Below, piece by piece: positions 98-21,632 of a DNA stretch of 25,206 nucleotides. Position 1 is the first letter of the stretch, and each line of letters begins with the position of its first letter. The position numbers and the translations under genes were made by a program. Source of the DNA: a virus; IMG/VR virus record IMGVR_UViG_3300037963_004977, positions 1-25,206 of that record; one strand, 5' to 3'. Under the pieces are notes generated by a model. The model was not told the origin of the DNA, made no database searches, and saw nothing but the letters and a program-made list of their open reading frames with translations.

Positions 98-295
98 TTA
101 AAGCTCGTTTTTGGTCAGGGGGTCAGCATACGCAAGTGTGTCCTCATCACACTTGTCTCGTACCAACTCAAGGACTGCCATGAACTGATCCACGGTTTCA
201 CAATCCACGACACGCTCTTCACCTTCGCTGGAGTACAGGAAAAACTTACGGGACGCGGGGTCAACGACACAGCGTGTCAGGTACTCGTCTTGCAT
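98..295 (-). CDS. Small hypothetical protein, first gene after an early-type promoter
   Basis: A 65-residue acidic protein starting MQDEYLTRCVV and ending LTKNEL, with no signal peptide or membrane segment. I do not recognise the family. Residues about 10-35 read as two short beta strands (RKFFLYS, ERVVDCE) before a helix (VDQFMAVLELVRDKC). It has three cysteines with no zinc-binding spacing. The minus strand is preferred over the overlapping plus-strand frame because a perfect sigma-70 promoter lies directly upstream in the same direction. The predicted transcript start (around 312) leaves a leader of only about 17 nt, and I see no Shine-Dalgarno sequence in it. The promoter type suggests expression early in infection, unlike the structural genes to the right. 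Function unknown. Confidence 0.68.
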   Translation of the reverse strand: MQDEYLTRCVVDPASRKFFLYSSEGEERVVDCETVDQFMAVLELVRDKCDEDTLAYADPLTKNEL

Positions 296-1390: not shown

Positions 1391-2076
1391 TACTCACCCT
1401 CCTTCGTACTCTTATCTCCACGGGCATCATAATCATAACCAGAGATTGAGAATTGCTTATCATCTCCTGGATATTCGGCAGGAGTTTCTCCCTCGTACTC
1501 AACAATGAGGGGTTCTCCATCAATCCTTGCTGCTTGAATTACATAATAACAATCAATACTAGTTCCATTACCAGATTTAACTCTGACAACTTTTCCCCAA
1601 TCAATACTCTCAACAATTAGATCTTGGGAAGATCCAATTTGAGTTAGTGTTACAGTTATACTATCAACATCAATCAATCCTTCCCAATAAGATGGAAGTT
1701 CAATGGTATTTTTTCCAGTCAGTCTACCTCTGTAATATACTCCCGCTTCAGGACCTTCAAGACAAATATGTCTCAAGCGATGATTTGGTTTATTGGGATG
1801 CTTAATGTCAAATCCTTTCCAAGACTGAACATTAATAACTCCTTGAAATCTTGGAGCAGTTACAACACCACCAGCCTGTATATTTGTATCAACTGCTAAA
1901 TTACCCAGTCGCATATTATAATGCAACCAAGGTTGACATGCTTCTGGAGGATAACTAGATGCTTGAGTGATAGCCTTGGTTGGATAATCAAACATTGTAG
2001 AGAATCTACCAAAAGTTGGTTGATCTCCACAGTGAGTGTCCCAATTTAGTTCTGGTCCTAAAAATTCAGCGGCCAT
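1390..2076 (-). CDS. Probable virion structural protein, paralogue of the upstream gene
   Basis: A 228-residue protein whose C-terminal half (from about residue 95) aligns with that of the 267-residue protein encoded just upstream. Shared landmarks are RLRHxCxEGP, then VYxRG, LPxYWxGL(I/V)D, a Thr-rich strand ending in QIG or PIG, CYYxI, EYEGExPAxYPG and SGYxYDxRG. The HPxxPxxRLRH...EGP segment resembles a domain I recall from fibre-like and structural proteins of cyanophages. The N-terminal about 90 residues differ from the paralogue and are probably a separate attachment or trimerisation part. Start and upstream stop overlap as TAATG, with GAGGAG just before. A short charged tail (about GDKSTKEGE) extends beyond the paralogue. 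The exact location in the virion cannot be read from sequence. Confidence 0.8.
   Translation of the reverse strand: MAAEFLGPELNWDTHCGDQPTFGRFSTMFDYPTKAITQASSYPPEACQPWLHYNMRLGNLAVDTNIQAGGVVTAPRFQGVINVQSWKGFDIKHPNKPNHRLRHICLEGPEAGVYYRGRLTGKNTIELPSYWEGLIDVDSITVTLTQIGSSQDLIVESIDWGKVVRVKSGNGTSIDCYYVIQAARIDGEPLIVEYEGETPAEYPGDDKQFSISGYDYDARGDKSTKEGE
1397..1404 (-). promoter_or_regulatory. Strong ribosome binding site for the 348-residue gene
   Basis: Minus-strand AAGGAGGG lies six bases before the ATG at 1390, within the last codons of the upstream gene. It is the best Shine-Dalgarno match noticed in the window and fixes this start, even though the ATG overlaps the previous stop. Confidence 0.75.
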
Positions 2077-2879
2077 TATTCTCCTCTCTTGTCATAGTGG
2101 TAACCAGAAACAGAGTATTCATCATTATTTCCTGGGTAATCTGCTGGAGATTCACCTTCATATTCAGGGATAAGTCTTTCTCCATCTGCTCTTTCGGCAA
2201 AAATTTGGTAGTAGCAATTGATTGGAACACCTCCATTCGATTGAAGATATACTTTTTCCTCATCGACTCTTTTGACGATCACATTTTGATGTGCTCCAAT
2301 CGGAGTAAGATTGACCGTAATTGTTGTCCAATCAACTAACCCCTTCCAATATGTAGGCAATATAATCTCTTTTTTATTCACTACTTTACCTCTACAGTAA
2401 ACATCATTAGATGGTCCCTCAGGGCAAGTATGACGTAATCGATATCCAGGTCTGGTTGGGTGAGGAATATCAAAGTTTTTCTTTGCAGCAAGGATATGTC
2501 CACCGTTGTTGGACATCACATCCCCTTGAGCGATTAGATCGCCACCGACATGAACATTATCATTAGTATCTACAACTCCAAGAAAAGCACTTGGTCCAGA
2601 CACTGCAAGAGAATATGGACTATGATTACCTCTTGGAAGAAGGATGCCTGGACAAATTCCTGCGAGAGAGGAGATAGGAGAGTCATCAGAGTTTCCATAT
2701 GCACCAATACATACGGTCGCATATGGAGTAATAAACTCTGTGGCACCACCAAAGACAGCAGGGCCCTCTGAATACATGGAACCATTAATTTTTAATGGAC
2801 CTTCTCCAATAGCAGGAACAATACCAATTCCTACTTTAAGTTGTCCACCTACGTTTTGATCGTCTGAAAAGAATGCCAT
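2076..2879 (-). CDS. Probable virion structural protein with fibre-like C-terminal domain
   Basis: A 267-residue protein with two parts. The N-terminal part (about residues 1-125) is Gly/Pro-rich with short beta segments (QLKVGIGIVPAIG, SMYSEGPAVFGG, NVHVGGDLIAQGDVMSNNGG), a pattern common in trimeric fibre shafts. The C-terminal part (about 130-267) contains RLRHTCPEGP, VYCRG, LPTYWKGLVDW and YEGESPADYPG and is shared with the 228-residue neighbour. The ATG lies one base after the stop of the 208-residue gene, in a tight late operon. A tail-fibre or baseplate-decoration role is inferred from composition and neighbours. No catalytic motif is evident. Confidence 0.8.
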   Translation of the reverse strand: MAFFSDDQNVGGQLKVGIGIVPAIGEGPLKINGSMYSEGPAVFGGATEFITPYATVCIGAYGNSDDSPISSLAGICPGILLPRGNHSPYSLAVSGPSAFLGVVDTNDNVHVGGDLIAQGDVMSNNGGHILAAKKNFDIPHPTRPGYRLRHTCPEGPSNDVYCRGKVVNKKEIILPTYWKGLVDWTTITVNLTPIGAHQNVIVKRVDEEKVYLQSNGGVPINCYYQIFAERADGERLIPEYEGESPADYPGNNDEYSVSGYHYDKRGE

Positions 2880-11092: not shown

Positions 11093-11100
11093 TATTTATT
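11093..11100 (-). promoter_or_regulatory. Late-promoter-like element AATAAATA
   Basis: Minus-strand AATAAATA has one mismatch to the T4 late -10 element and lies 32 nt before the ATG of the giant gene, within the only gap of some size (38 bp) in this part of the operon. It overlaps the TAA stop of gp5. Confidence 0.55.
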
Positions 11101-13090
11101 AGGCTATTTGTAGGTAATCATCTGGGTTATAAGTTTCATCATCATACCCTGCGTCAAGATCAACGTCTGGTTGATCTTTACTTGGAACAGCATAATCTGG
11201 TGGAGGTGCTGGTGTAGTCATTATCTCATTCCTGTCCGAACCACTTACGGCAACGGAGTTGCCAACGGACTCAAGACTAGGAACTTCTGCTGCAGATGCT
11301 CCTGAACCACCAGTAGCAAGTTGATAGTAATCGTTGATTGCTTGCTTTGGTGGTAGTTCTCCTGCAAAAACATTTGCTACAACATTAGCAAAATCGAGAG
11401 CAGCACCAAGACCACCAGCAATGTCCGGAATCATATTCACTGCTCCACCCATGCCACCAGTTATGACATCAGCACTTGCTCCAAAATCTCCAAAGCTATC
11501 TCCCAATCCATTACTCATCAACTCTTTTCCAGCACTCAAAGCACTAGAAACACTATCCATTTCTGCTTGAACTCCATCAAGATACATGTTCAAACTACGA
11601 ACAACATTAGTATTTGCCTGTTCTATCTGTTCTTTATTTTTAGATATTACAGTTGATGCTACACTTTCAGCATAGCACGCTGGAACTTTTGGAGCGGTCC
11701 TAAATTTTCCATTGTTGCGGCGATCTCCAATTCCAATAGCATTTCCAGTATTTGGATCAATGCCACTCTGCCCACCACCTGAAGTTTGTTGTGCTGCAAA
11801 ATCCCTTGCTTCTTGTTCTCTTGCGGCAGGTTGCAATGCATCCATTAGAGTAGCACACAATTGATCACCAAGTCCTCCAATCATTTGGTTGTACATTCCC
11901 AGAATCATTTCATTCAATTTCTCTTTTAGATCACCTATTTGATTTCTAAAAGAAGATGGTAATGAAGCAACAACTTTTGTCATAACGGAATTGAGTTGTT
12001 TCAAAACAAATTCCATTATCTTATCCATCAACACTTTCATATATTTTGCTGCCTGCATTGCACCCTTGCAGATCATATCTTCAAGGCCTCCTGACATAGT
12101 ATTTGATACGGTATCAACATAACTCTGGATAGCATTCAAATACTTATCCATCTTTTGACTGATATTATCAATGATAGTCTGAATTGCTTTCATTGCAGAC
12201 TGAACTGGATCATCAGGAATGGGCATGACAGTTTTTTCTTCTGCCAAGTCCTGCTCCTTTACATCACCAGCAGTAATATTTTGAACGTCTGGACTTTCTC
12301 TTTGTGCTCCTTTTCTGAATGGAGCAGTAGGTGCTGTCTGTTGTGCTTCTCTATTGCCTACAACATTTGCTACTGCTGCCATTGCAGCATTTTCTACTTC
12401 CTGAACAGACTTGCCTTGTGCCCTTGCCTTCTCTCTTGCTGCCTGTGCTGCTTCTAATCCTCCAGGAACTGATGACAATGGTTGGTCTGGTCTTAATCCA
12501 AACTTATTCAGTTTTACATTTTTCGGTACTTGTTGTGCAGCAGGTGATGAGTTAGGGTGCTCTGATTTTATATCACCATCAGGAGGAGTTGGTTTTTCTC
12601 CAGTGCTTGCATCTTTGGATACTTGTCCGTCAGCATATCCACTGACTGCCAAAGATCCTGGTTGTTTGTTTGTAACTCGATTATCACCAACGGTCAGTGC
12701 AGGTTCATTCTGAGCATTATTTCCAAGAACTCCCATGATGACAGGAACGGTCATTGCCGTTCCATCCATGAAGAAACCAAACACCATGTTTCCTTGACGG
12801 AGTGCTGGCGTCTGACCACTATTACTGAGACTTCCTCCCGATGTTACGGGCATCATCACGTTAGCCCAAGGCAAGTCTTTAGAAGGTATTACCTCTTCAC
12901 CTTGATCATGAAGACCAAGAATTCTTACCTTGTACCTTCTACCCCAGCCTACGTTTTCTGCATCGCTTGCATGAGGAGCACATATAATATTTTCTCTCCA
13001 GACGGAATCGTCAGCAATCTGACCGATCCACCAGTGAAAACTGGATCCTAGTAAACCAGAATCAAATAATGCTCCCCCGTCCTGTGCCAT
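11099..13090 (-). CDS. 5: Baseplate central spike/hub protein gp5, OB-fold form
   Basis: A 663-residue homologue of T4 gp5, which sits at the tip of the tail tube and pierces the cell envelope. The N-terminal about 135 residues look like the gp5/VgrG OB-fold: WGRRYKVRILGLHDQGE, LPWANVMMPVTSGG, RQGNMVFGFFMDGT and VPVIMGVLGN. What follows differs from T4 gp5. Residues about 135-290 are Pro/Gln/Ala-rich linker, about 295-435 is helical (KMDKYLNAIQSYVDTVSNTM and further amphipathic helices), and the end is Gly- and Asp-rich. I see neither the T4 lysozyme domain nor the eight-residue VxGxxxxx beta-helix repeats of T4 gp5 (575 residues). The ATG is five bases after the CP12-like gene with a weak Shine-Dalgarno, suggesting coupled translation. 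Identity rests on the N-terminus and on its place beside the gp27-like gene. Confidence 0.85.
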   Translation of the reverse strand: MAQDGGALFDSGLLGSSFHWWIGQIADDSVWRENIICAPHASDAENVGWGRRYKVRILGLHDQGEEVIPSKDLPWANVMMPVTSGGSLSNSGQTPALRQGNMVFGFFMDGTAMTVPVIMGVLGNNAQNEPALTVGDNRVTNKQPGSLAVSGYADGQVSKDASTGEKPTPPDGDIKSEHPNSSPAAQQVPKNVKLNKFGLRPDQPLSSVPGGLEAAQAAREKARAQGKSVQEVENAAMAAVANVVGNREAQQTAPTAPFRKGAQRESPDVQNITAGDVKEQDLAEEKTVMPIPDDPVQSAMKAIQTIIDNISQKMDKYLNAIQSYVDTVSNTMSGGLEDMICKGAMQAAKYMKVLMDKIMEFVLKQLNSVMTKVVASLPSSFRNQIGDLKEKLNEMILGMYNQMIGGLGDQLCATLMDALQPAAREQEARDFAAQQTSGGGQSGIDPNTGNAIGIGDRRNNGKFRTAPKVPACYAESVASTVISKNKEQIEQANTNVVRSLNMYLDGVQAEMDSVSSALSAGKELMSNGLGDSFGDFGASADVITGGMGGAVNMIPDIAGGLGAALDFANVVANVFAGELPPKQAINDYYQLATGGSGASAAEVPSLESVGNSVAVSGSDRNEIMTTPAPPPDYAVPSKDQPDVDLDAGYDDETYNPDDYLQIA

Positions 13091-13095
13091 ATTAA

Positions 13096-13323
13096 TCAGT
13101 TATCGTGTGTCTTACATTCAGGAGCACTTGGTTCCACTTCGCAGTAAAGTTCTAGTGCTGTAGGATCGTGATGGTCTCCTGCTTCGATTTCTTCTTTATG
13201 ATTTTCGACGTATACTTCTAATTCATGCAACTCTTCTTCAACATGACGACGTTGTTGCGGGTTGGTAGTAGGATCTTGCAGAATCTGCTTATCCTTCTCA
13301 ATGTGCTTTTCGATGCTTTCCAT
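13096..13323 (-). CDS. cp12: CP12-like protein (Calvin-cycle inhibitor motif)
   Basis: A 75-residue, acidic, mostly helical protein. Its C-terminus, LELYCEVEPSAPECKTHDN, matches the conserved CP12 tail: Tyr/Phe-Cys, Pro four residues after the Cys, Glu-Cys with eight residues between the cysteines, a basic residue, then an acidic end. In plants and cyanobacteria that disulphide loop binds GAPDH, and CP12 then traps phosphoribulokinase and shuts the Calvin cycle. The usual central AWDxVEEL helix is only loosely present (RHVEEELHEL), and the N-terminal cysteine pair of many CP12s is absent. Cyanophages are known to carry cp12 to redirect host carbon flux towards the pentose phosphate pathway. 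It lies between gp27-like and gp5 with gaps of 6 and 5 bases, and its Shine-Dalgarno (AAAGG) overlaps the upstream stop. CP12 activity is an inference from the motif. Confidence 0.72.
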   Translation of the reverse strand: MESIEKHIEKDKQILQDPTTNPQQRRHVEEELHELEVYVENHKEEIEAGDHHDPTALELYCEVEPSAPECKTHDN

Positions 13324-13329
13324 GTACTG

Positions 13330-14655
13330 TTACCTTTTCGTGTGGTTTCCTTGTCTCCCGAAGGAATCTCGTATTAAACAGAGTTTAGTTAGAGTCTTAT
13401 CGGGTTTTATTTGATGACATAGACTTGCTATAATATATAGACCCCCAGCCTGCTTGTCAATCTCATCGTTTTTTGTGTCTTCTTCTGGTGACGGAGCATC
13501 AAAGAATATCATGTCTCCTGCATGTAATTCAAAATCTCCTTGAACTAAAATATGAACTTTCGATGCGAAAACCTGATTATATCTCATAATCGACTGGTTG
13601 TAAATACCACCAAAGTCAAAGTTATTTTCTGAGGATTCTTCAGCAGTTTGTCCAAAGGATCCAGTATCAAGAAAATTCAATGTAGTTCTTGAAAACTCTT
13701 GTATTAACGATGGATTAAAAGTAGCCAACTCCTTTGCTGCGGATGTCAATGGTTTAATTGCTTCATCAACATTCTCTACTATGTCTTCTATTGTAGATAA
13801 AATAGTTCTCTTAAAATTAAAATTGATTGGGTCAAATGTTATGGAAGCAGTTGAGAATGCTCCCATCTTTGACATCTCTAATTTACTAGCACTCTCTCTG
13901 TCATATGTTAATGCCTTATAATCATAACCTTCAGGAACTTGATTCTTCTCTGGTCCTTGGTTGTAAATAATTGATCTCTTCCTAGGGTTTTTCTCCTCAT
14001 CAAAAAAACTATCAATTGACTTAAAGACCATCTTTTCTGAAGTTTCAAAGAAAAAATATCCTGCAGTCTGACCTTCACCGCCAGATGGTTGTGCTTTCTT
14101 GGCGAAGGTGTTCAGCATATAATATGGTTTTCTGTTTAATCCATATTCTTTAAGAGAGTTACTTGTGTCCTCAACATCTAATGTTTTTTCTGTTTTCAAG
14201 AAATCTGTCATTAGAGTTTTTACATGATCAGAAATTTTTTGTTTTGGGAAAAACTTTCTAACATTTTGAGTATCATTAACAGCAAATGCTTTAGATGACA
14301 GAGGTAAAATTACAAGAGACTTGGTAGTTTCTGATGATATATTCATATCATTACCAACGATCATATCAAATTCTAATGTCGTTTCGTTATTATCTTTAGC
14401 CTTAAATGAGAAGGTTTCTCCTCCATTTAAAGGAAGACCTTCACTCACAGTCTTTTTATCAATTGAATTACCCGCATCAGAGAACATAAATGTTGCCTGA
14501 ATTCCATCCTGCAAGATACTCTCATAGTATCTCAATTCAACAAAACCACCAGCAACACTAACAGAGCGACTAGGATCTTTTTTATCAAATATAGTTGCAA
14601 GTTCTATTTTACAAGATCCTGCATTTTGTCCTTGAGTTTTCTTTGTTTCTGACAT
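13330..14655 (-). CDS. Baseplate hub protein, gp27-like
   Basis: A 441-residue protein, slightly longer than T4 gp27 (391). The N-terminal region (about 15-75: CKIELATIFD, VELRYYESILQDGIQATFMF, SDAGNS) and the later beta-rich parts resemble hub proteins that form the ring joining the tail tube to the gp5 spike. T4 gp27 has this role and binds gp5 directly. Here the gene is separated from gp5 only by the small CP12-like gene, which supports the call. Residues about 115-185 are charged and helical (FFPKQKISDHVKTLMTDFLK). No enzyme motif is seen. The start has GAGGG about nine bases upstream and a TAAATA element 19 nt away. Identification rests on the N-terminal pattern, length and neighbours, as gp27 homologues are poorly conserved. 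Confidence 0.7.
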   Translation of the reverse strand: MSETKKTQGQNAGSCKIELATIFDKKDPSRSVSVAGGFVELRYYESILQDGIQATFMFSDAGNSIDKKTVSEGLPLNGGETFSFKAKDNNETTLEFDMIVGNDMNISSETTKSLVILPLSSKAFAVNDTQNVRKFFPKQKISDHVKTLMTDFLKTEKTLDVEDTSNSLKEYGLNRKPYYMLNTFAKKAQPSGGEGQTAGYFFFETSEKMVFKSIDSFFDEEKNPRKRSIIYNQGPEKNQVPEGYDYKALTYDRESASKLEMSKMGAFSTASITFDPINFNFKRTILSTIEDIVENVDEAIKPLTSAAKELATFNPSLIQEFSRTTLNFLDTGSFGQTAEESSENNFDFGGIYNQSIMRYNQVFASKVHILVQGDFELHAGDMIFFDAPSPEEDTKNDEIDKQAGGLYIIASLCHQIKPDKTLTKLCLIRDSFGRQGNHTKR

Positions 14656-19906: not shown

Positions 19907-20626
19907 CTAGGCGAAAAAACTTGCCAGTCCCTCCAGAAGAACTTCATTTTCCTTCTTGGTATTTGGATTTTCAAACTTCACAGTATGTGAAAGTTTTGGC
20001 ATAGTCTCAAAGAAAGTTTCAATCTCCTTAAACTGAGTAGAATTCATCTGCTCAAGGAAGTCTTTAATTTCTTTCTTAGTACAGTCAGCGGCCGCCCATA
20101 CTTCTTCTTCGCTGTAGATCTTATCAACACAAGATGCAATCAAATCAAAGGACTGTTCCATTTGATTCTTTTCATTAAACTCAAAGTTATTTGAAATGAA
20201 CTGATCCAGTGAAGGATACTTCATTTCCATCATTAAGGTATCATCAAGTTTGATCTGACGAGTGTGATCATCATTCTTTGCTACCTTGATGTCATCCAAT
20301 CCGATTGTGACTTTAACTTCAGTCACACCATCATCAGGAGCAATCAGATTAACTTCAACTTCTTCACCCACAGATTTTCCGCGAATGTTGAGGAAGAGAT
20401 ATTCAATATCAAATGTAGGAAGTTGTTCTACCTTAACTCCCCGCGTTTGAATACAGTTTTTCAGAACAGACTTAATTGCTGTTGTGATTTGTTTTGTATC
20501 CTCACTCTCCATTGCAAGGACAAGAAGTTTCTCTTCCTTGACTAGGAAAGGTCTGTATTGAATTGTCTGTCCAGTTGATGGCAATTCAAGATCATACTTG
20601 GGCGTAGCAATCTTTGGTAAAGGCAT
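19907..20626 (-). CDS. 26: Baseplate hub assembly protein gp26
   Basis: A 239-residue soluble protein. The N-terminal LPSTGQTIQYRPFLVKEEKL segment, followed by LLVLAMES, is the hallmark of the T4 gp26-type baseplate protein family (T4 gp26 is 208 residues). The middle (about 85-130) is beta-rich with acidic loops. The C-terminal half is helical (DLIASCVDKIYSEEEVW, EIKDFLEQMNSTQFKEIETF) and ends with VKFENPNTKKENEVLLEGL. gp26 acts in assembly of the baseplate hub. Its neighbours are gp54 and the large hub-like proteins, so the context agrees. A late-type AATAAATA lies 29 nt before the ATG. The stop is two bases before the next gene. Confidence 0.85.
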   Translation of the reverse strand: MPLPKIATPKYDLELPSTGQTIQYRPFLVKEEKLLVLAMESEDTKQITTAIKSVLKNCIQTRGVKVEQLPTFDIEYLFLNIRGKSVGEEVEVNLIAPDDGVTEVKVTIGLDDIKVAKNDDHTRQIKLDDTLMMEMKYPSLDQFISNNFEFNEKNQMEQSFDLIASCVDKIYSEEEVWAAADCTKKEIKDFLEQMNSTQFKEIETFFETMPKLSHTVKFENPNTKKENEVLLEGLASFFA

Positions 20627-20655: not shown

Positions 20656-20663
20656 TATTTATT
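20656..20663 (-). promoter_or_regulatory. Late-promoter-like element AATAAATA
   Basis: Minus-strand AATAAATA has one mismatch to TATAAATA, lies in the 46-bp gap between gp54 and gp26, and is 29 nt before the gp26 ATG. It is identical to the element before the giant gene. Confidence 0.6.
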
Positions 20664-21624: not shown

Positions 21625-21632
21625 TATAAATA
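21625..21632 (+). promoter_or_regulatory. Perfect T4-type late promoter element TATAAATA
   Basis: TATAAATA on the plus strand exactly matches the T4 late -10 element and ends 22 nt before the gp4 ATG. It lies in the 31-bp gap between divergent gp54 and gp4. It is part of the perfect palindrome ATTTATAAAT (21622-21631), whose left end covers the start codon of gp54. Confidence 0.75.

Follow-up and report, generated by a model that had tools for sequence, protein, structure and literature searches.

What is a gene for a Calvin-cycle protein doing in the middle of a baseplate operon, and when during infection would it be expressed? Phage CP12 is thought to halt the carbon fixation of ocean cyanobacteria during infection, and in the stretch of viral DNA analysed here (the window; 25,206 nucleotides, IMG/VR record IMGVR_UViG_3300037963_004977) a CP12-like gene lies among genes for tail and baseplate proteins, a position that taken alone would imply late expression. 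We propose, with a probability of roughly 0.7, that the gene encodes a Calvin-cycle inhibitor at its usual cyanophage site and that it is served both by its own mid-infection promoter and by late read-through. The features on which the argument rests are the following.

11099 to 13090, minus strand: gp5, baseplate hub and tail lysozyme/spike (phrog_33098, Gp5_OB).
13096 to 13323, minus strand: cp12 gene, 75 amino acids (T4-GC 337, phrog_627, Pfam PF02672).
13114 to 13143, minus strand: codons of the C-terminal loop Cys61-EVEPSAPE-Cys70, placed by alignment with the CP12s of 6gfo/3qv1.
13330 to 14655, minus strand: upstream tail/hub protein (T4-GC 15, phrog_350), whose 3' end houses the candidate promoter.
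13432 to 13460, minus strand: candidate host-type (sigma-70/SigA-like) promoter within the hub gene, TTGACA-N17-TATATT, put forward from its hexamers, synonymous-site conservation and lineage comparison.
19907 to 20626, minus strand: gp26-like baseplate hub gene, first in the operon that contains cp12.
20656 to 20662, minus strand: T4-like late promoter motif ATAAATA, 30 nt before the gp26-like gene.

The coordinates confirm the arrangement described in the first-pass annotation, a 75-residue protein with a CP12 loop set tightly between hub and spike genes. The operon runs from the gp26-like gene through two large tail genes and the GC15 gene to cp12 and gp5, with 6 nt between the GC15 tail/hub gene and cp12 and 5 nt between cp12 and gp5. 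The product ends in C61-EVEPSAPE-C70-KTHDN, with Pro65 and Glu69 inside the eight-residue spacer, and we take the Cys61–Cys70 loop to be the GAPDH-binding module, as in known CP12s. A CP12 identity had been suggested from this motif, and profile searching bears it out: the Pfam CP12 profile matches residues 2–74 of the 75 (E=1.3e-8), and as the score of 35.9 bits exceeds the curated cut-off of PF02672 (22.7 bits) the C-x8-C motif is not a chance resemblance. The match to phrog_627 covers the full length (residues 1–75, E=5.4e-39), and all 34 members of a mixed phage–host alignment match Pfam CP12. Membership of the CP12 family is thus supported directly and, judged by its sequence, the 75-amino-acid ORF at 13096–13323 is a CP12 protein. 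An AlphaFold model of the single chain (pLDDT 90) has a helical hairpin and a C-terminal helix (residues 4–16, 22–41 and 56–63); its top PDB match was 6gfo_F, the CP12 of a cyanobacterial GAPDH complex, at a non-significant E of 0.31, and weak sequence matches to GAPDH-bound CP12 chains were found at E 0.025–0.2.

The protein does depart from the canonical CP12s of plants and freshwater cyanobacteria (6gfo, 6kez, 3qv1), which have the C-terminal loop in common with it but also carry an N-terminal Cys pair and an AWD_VEEL core. No cysteine lies ahead of Cys61 in the window protein, and the AWD_VEE core was found neither there nor in any phage or marine host copy examined. Since exceptions without this core are listed within the family (PMC3906501), we regard the window protein as a non-canonical CP12; the CP12 of S. 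elongatus, without the N-terminal Cys pair, still forms the complex (PMC9406205). The absence of the core, which had been read as degeneration, is therefore real but is neither a phage peculiarity nor a sign of phage decay, as the CP12s of marine Synechococcus and Prochlorococcus (about 53 distinct sequences, after seven that resembled phage contigs in bins were left out) likewise have the C-terminal Cys loop, no N-terminal cysteines and no AWD. Phage and marine host proteins have a common frame, H-x3-D...RH...EL...HDP...CxxxPxxxEC, whereas the host form, at 72 amino acids, does without the DP(T)xxP and EIEAGD segments of the phage form.

A further reservation of the first-pass annotation, that Lys and His replace Arg and Tyr in the tail, is also correct, and the replacement is common among phages. 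Lys71 and His73 occupy the Arg and Tyr positions of the CP12s of solved structure; among 63 phage copies (75 amino acids each) position 71 is K, R or L (K in 30/63) and position 73 is Y, H or F (H in 25/63). The phage tails fall into the types CR-x-Y, CL-x-Y and CK-x-H, and 26 of the 70 distinct phage copies combine K with H, a pairing seen in no host copy. Host tails read [LR]-V/I-Y, with R or L first and always Y second, against K-x-H in the window protein, and the two changed residues could make for weaker GAPDH binding. Taken further, the Lys/His tail and the missing AWD core might mean that the protein does not bind GAPDH at all and does something else or nothing. We consider this highly improbable, as the core is missing from the hosts' own CP12s too, and Cys61, Pro65, Glu69 and Cys70 are invariant in the 63 phage copies, for which median dN/dS is about 0.09 (most pairs being near synonymous saturation). 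The C-terminal Cys pair, CxxxPxxxxC, was present in 70/70 distinct phage copies.

Host GAPDH, and through GAPDH also PRK, is the most likely binding partner of the C-terminal Cys loop; such binding would stop the Calvin cycle and leave NADPH and pentoses for phage nucleotides. In infections with phage S-RSM4, whose genome holds cp12, talC, gnd and zwf, host CO2 fixation ceases 2 h earlier than with S-PM2, a phage without these genes (PMC10665884), and no CP12 was found in the S-PM2 record. As S-PM2 nevertheless halts CO2 fixation (PMC10665884), cp12 is not the sole cause of the arrest; it helps at most and is not required.

One explanation for the position of the gene is recruitment of CP12 to the baseplate hub, to serve there in structure or assembly; the first-pass annotation had suggested such a role, and the placement between two hub genes is indeed conserved across many genera. 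Of 80 environmental relatives, 65 have cp12 next after the GC15 gene, 44 of these with gp5 immediately following it; in eight further loci the gp5 homologue was only too divergent for the profile. The closest published phage by hub protein, S-SM2 (44%), has the identical GC15–cp12–gp5 order with tight gaps, and the hub–cp12–gp5 order recurs in S-CAM4, S-SCSM2R, Sf-CH8, DSL-LC03 and SynMITS9220M01. Cyanophage CP12 was described, as T4-GC 337 of T4-like cyanomyoviruses, by Sullivan et al. (2010; PMC3037559), with the positions of talC and cp12 varying between the neighbourhoods of psbA and gp5; the window copy belongs to the same family, with the same 75 amino acids and a place near gp5, and differs in being the Lys/His tail variant. 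Given these published phages and that report, the arrangement is already known: the locus is conserved, and cp12 here is a familiar auxiliary gene, with nothing out of the ordinary in where it sits.

In S-SSM5, S-RIM2, P-SSM4 and Syn9, cpeT, oxygenase or tRNA genes intervene between cp12 and gp5. Against a part in the baseplate stand the other locations of the gene and the junctions without it: in P-HM2 and S-TIM5 cp12 adjoins or lies near talC, and in one environmental lineage (L053, 2732–3392) it directly precedes gp25–gp6, another baseplate operon. The hub gene runs straight into gp5 in P-HM2 and P-SSM2, and among 160 environmental relatives of their hub genes none had CP12 near this junction. 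The same hub genes occur in phages infecting Caulobacter, Agrobacterium and Rhizobium (Cr30, OLIVR6, RHph_I46), and these had no CP12 anywhere in their records, so that the neighbours are shared with phages of hosts lacking a Calvin cycle and cp12 is not. Neither this comparison nor the profile search thus gave the outcome that the first-pass annotation had named as refuting its reading; a 75-amino-acid ORF at the same site in Cr30 is of unrelated sequence and has no Cys pair. The gene has also been reported in podoviruses and siphoviruses (PMC10665884), and a tblastn search for CP12 returned 362 phage records, all of cyanophages judging by their names. Because cp12 is found at several further locations and intact hub–gp5 junctions exist without it, a structural role is not supported and we find it barely credible. 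No second CP12 copy was present in the phage records searched, of which 21 out of 25 have CP12 and each of these has one copy per genome, a comparison for which the window record, only 25 kb long, cannot speak for the rest of its own phage. A CP12 tree has 75 columns, too few to settle single against repeated acquisition. In P-SSM2 itself (GU071092, 55833–55904) the match to the CP12 profile is confined to its last 24 residues, within an ORF of 98 codons that, from its sequence, is a CP12 tail joined to a different N-terminus.

If cp12 is a metabolic gene among structural genes, its timing depends on the promoters that reach it. The window holds three copies of the T4-like late motif ATAAATA, below the 6.5 that chance predicts for its composition, and each copy (11093–11099, minus; 20656–20662, minus; 21626–21632, plus) lies 23–33 nt upstream of a gene read from its own strand, these genes encoding a 2509-amino-acid virion protein, the gp26-like protein and a gp4-like head closure protein. 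The copy before the gp26-like gene is 7 kb upstream of cp12, which has no late motif of its own; as it heads the same operon, cp12 can receive late read-through. One alternative to a dedicated promoter is that cp12 encodes a working Calvin-cycle inhibitor transcribed only late from the gp26 promoter, either keeping the cycle off during assembly or riding as mere cargo. The 6-nt and 5-nt gaps that flank cp12 fit such a unit, many compact relatives have no strong promoter ahead of cp12, and in other lineages, where gp5 is distant, a late-type motif directly precedes cp12 in 12 of 14 loci. Any promoter-like element in the hub gene would then be inactive or reflect other constraints.

There is such an element. 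A TTGACA at 13460–13455 and a TATATT at 13437–13432, separated by a 17-nt spacer and matching the consensus at 11/12 positions, lie in the final 45 hub-gene codons, 108 nt ahead of the cp12 ATG. On its own the site proves little, as chance alone would yield about 0.85 comparable sites in a window of this size and four were found. Its conservation is more telling. In 12 relatives, picked for carrying the motif, the 10-codon window with the least synonymous change of the whole hub gene falls on the -10 (observed/expected 0.18). The ratio is 0.32 for the window that spans -35 to -10, and the TTGACA hexamer is always kept while its codons vary between I/V/L and K/N/R/S; another two relatives have the -10 as well, with a -35 that is no longer exact. 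Codon-shuffle tests at single loci gave modest values (0.03 for the window) and were uninformative where the promoter is intergenic. Neither RNA structure nor an Rfam family accounts for the synonymous conservation, with folding z of -0.06 and -0.85 and no Rfam match. Conservation of the promoter-like element is a direct observation, and the substitution pattern indicates that it is selected at the nucleotide level. A similar site further upstream in the hub gene (TTTACA-17-TATAAT, 13604–13576) was not among the most conserved windows.

The comparison across lineages bears on the same point. When hub proteins are clustered at 75%, 17/40 lineages have a strong promoter in the 220 nt ahead of cp12, and 0/21 lineages without cp12 have one at the hub 3' end (Fisher p=2e-4, with the score threshold set after the scores were seen and the lineages related to one another); elsewhere in these genes, about 3% of stretches score as high. 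Clustering at 60% leaves a strong promoter in 12/31 cp12 lineages and none in 19/31, S-SM2 included, and the cp12-less control then comprises two groups only, so that the Fisher test is uninformative. In S-SM2 and the other lineages without a strong promoter, expression may therefore be late only. Counted back from the cp12 ATG, the end of the -10 lies at about 56 to 126 nt depending on the lineage, and these differing positions suggest repeated origin. Whether cyanomyoviruses have repeatedly built host-type promoters into the coding region of a tail gene expressed late, through which cp12 cargo escapes late timing and the hub 3' end comes under dual selection for protein and promoter, is a proposal we hold with evenly divided confidence. 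For the window, conservation at synonymous sites and across amino-acid changes, the absence of strong promoters where cp12 is absent and the lack of an explanatory RNA structure or Rfam family make exclusively late transcription unlikely, although it keeps more weight than the other alternatives.

We therefore favour a Calvin-cycle inhibitor with its own mid-infection promoter. In P-HM2 all auxiliary metabolic genes, cp12 included, are middle genes (PMC5082946); the P-HM2 gene, the copy with timing data, adjoins talC, whereas that of the window adjoins gp5. T4-like cyanophages have no T4-type middle promoters and no motA or asiA (PMC5780444). With P-HM2 cp12 a middle gene and a candidate promoter in the hub gene, middle-phase expression of the window gene from that predicted promoter is likely, given that host-like promoters reportedly drive the middle genes of T4-like cyanophages (attributed to Doron et al. 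2016). The embedded promoter, probably active with host RNA polymerase, would give cp12 middle-phase expression, to which read-through from the late promoter before gp26 would add late transcripts. The earlier expectation of late expression in the amounts of a virion part thus keeps a source of late transcripts and is weakened by a conserved host-type promoter 108 nt upstream. A metabolic gene among structural genes has a parallel in psbA of the podovirus P-SSP7, which is transcribed with the capsid genes (PMC10452541) and shares their promoters, whereas for cp12 a separate promoter appears inside a structural gene. The gene and its locus were already known; the new part is the conserved candidate promoter hidden in the hub gene, and it makes the timing of the switch in host carbon flow testable and advises caution in inferring timing from operon membership.

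To our knowledge, a promoter within the hub gene upstream of cyanophage cp12 has not been described before. Elsewhere in the window a perfect TTGACA-17-TATAAT at 347–319 (minus strand) overlaps the 3' end of the gene at 344–1390 and precedes a small ORF at 98–295 (minus strand), and may be another embedded host-type promoter. The adjacent genes at 1390–2076 and 2076–2879 (minus strand) both match phrog_17490 and phrog_28536 and resemble a tandem duplication. Phage-type CP12 genes were also met in six loci (L284, L292, L293, L300, L330 and L347) from bins labelled Euryarchaeota, Anaerolineales or Rhodopirellula, which are probably mis-binned cyanophage contigs.
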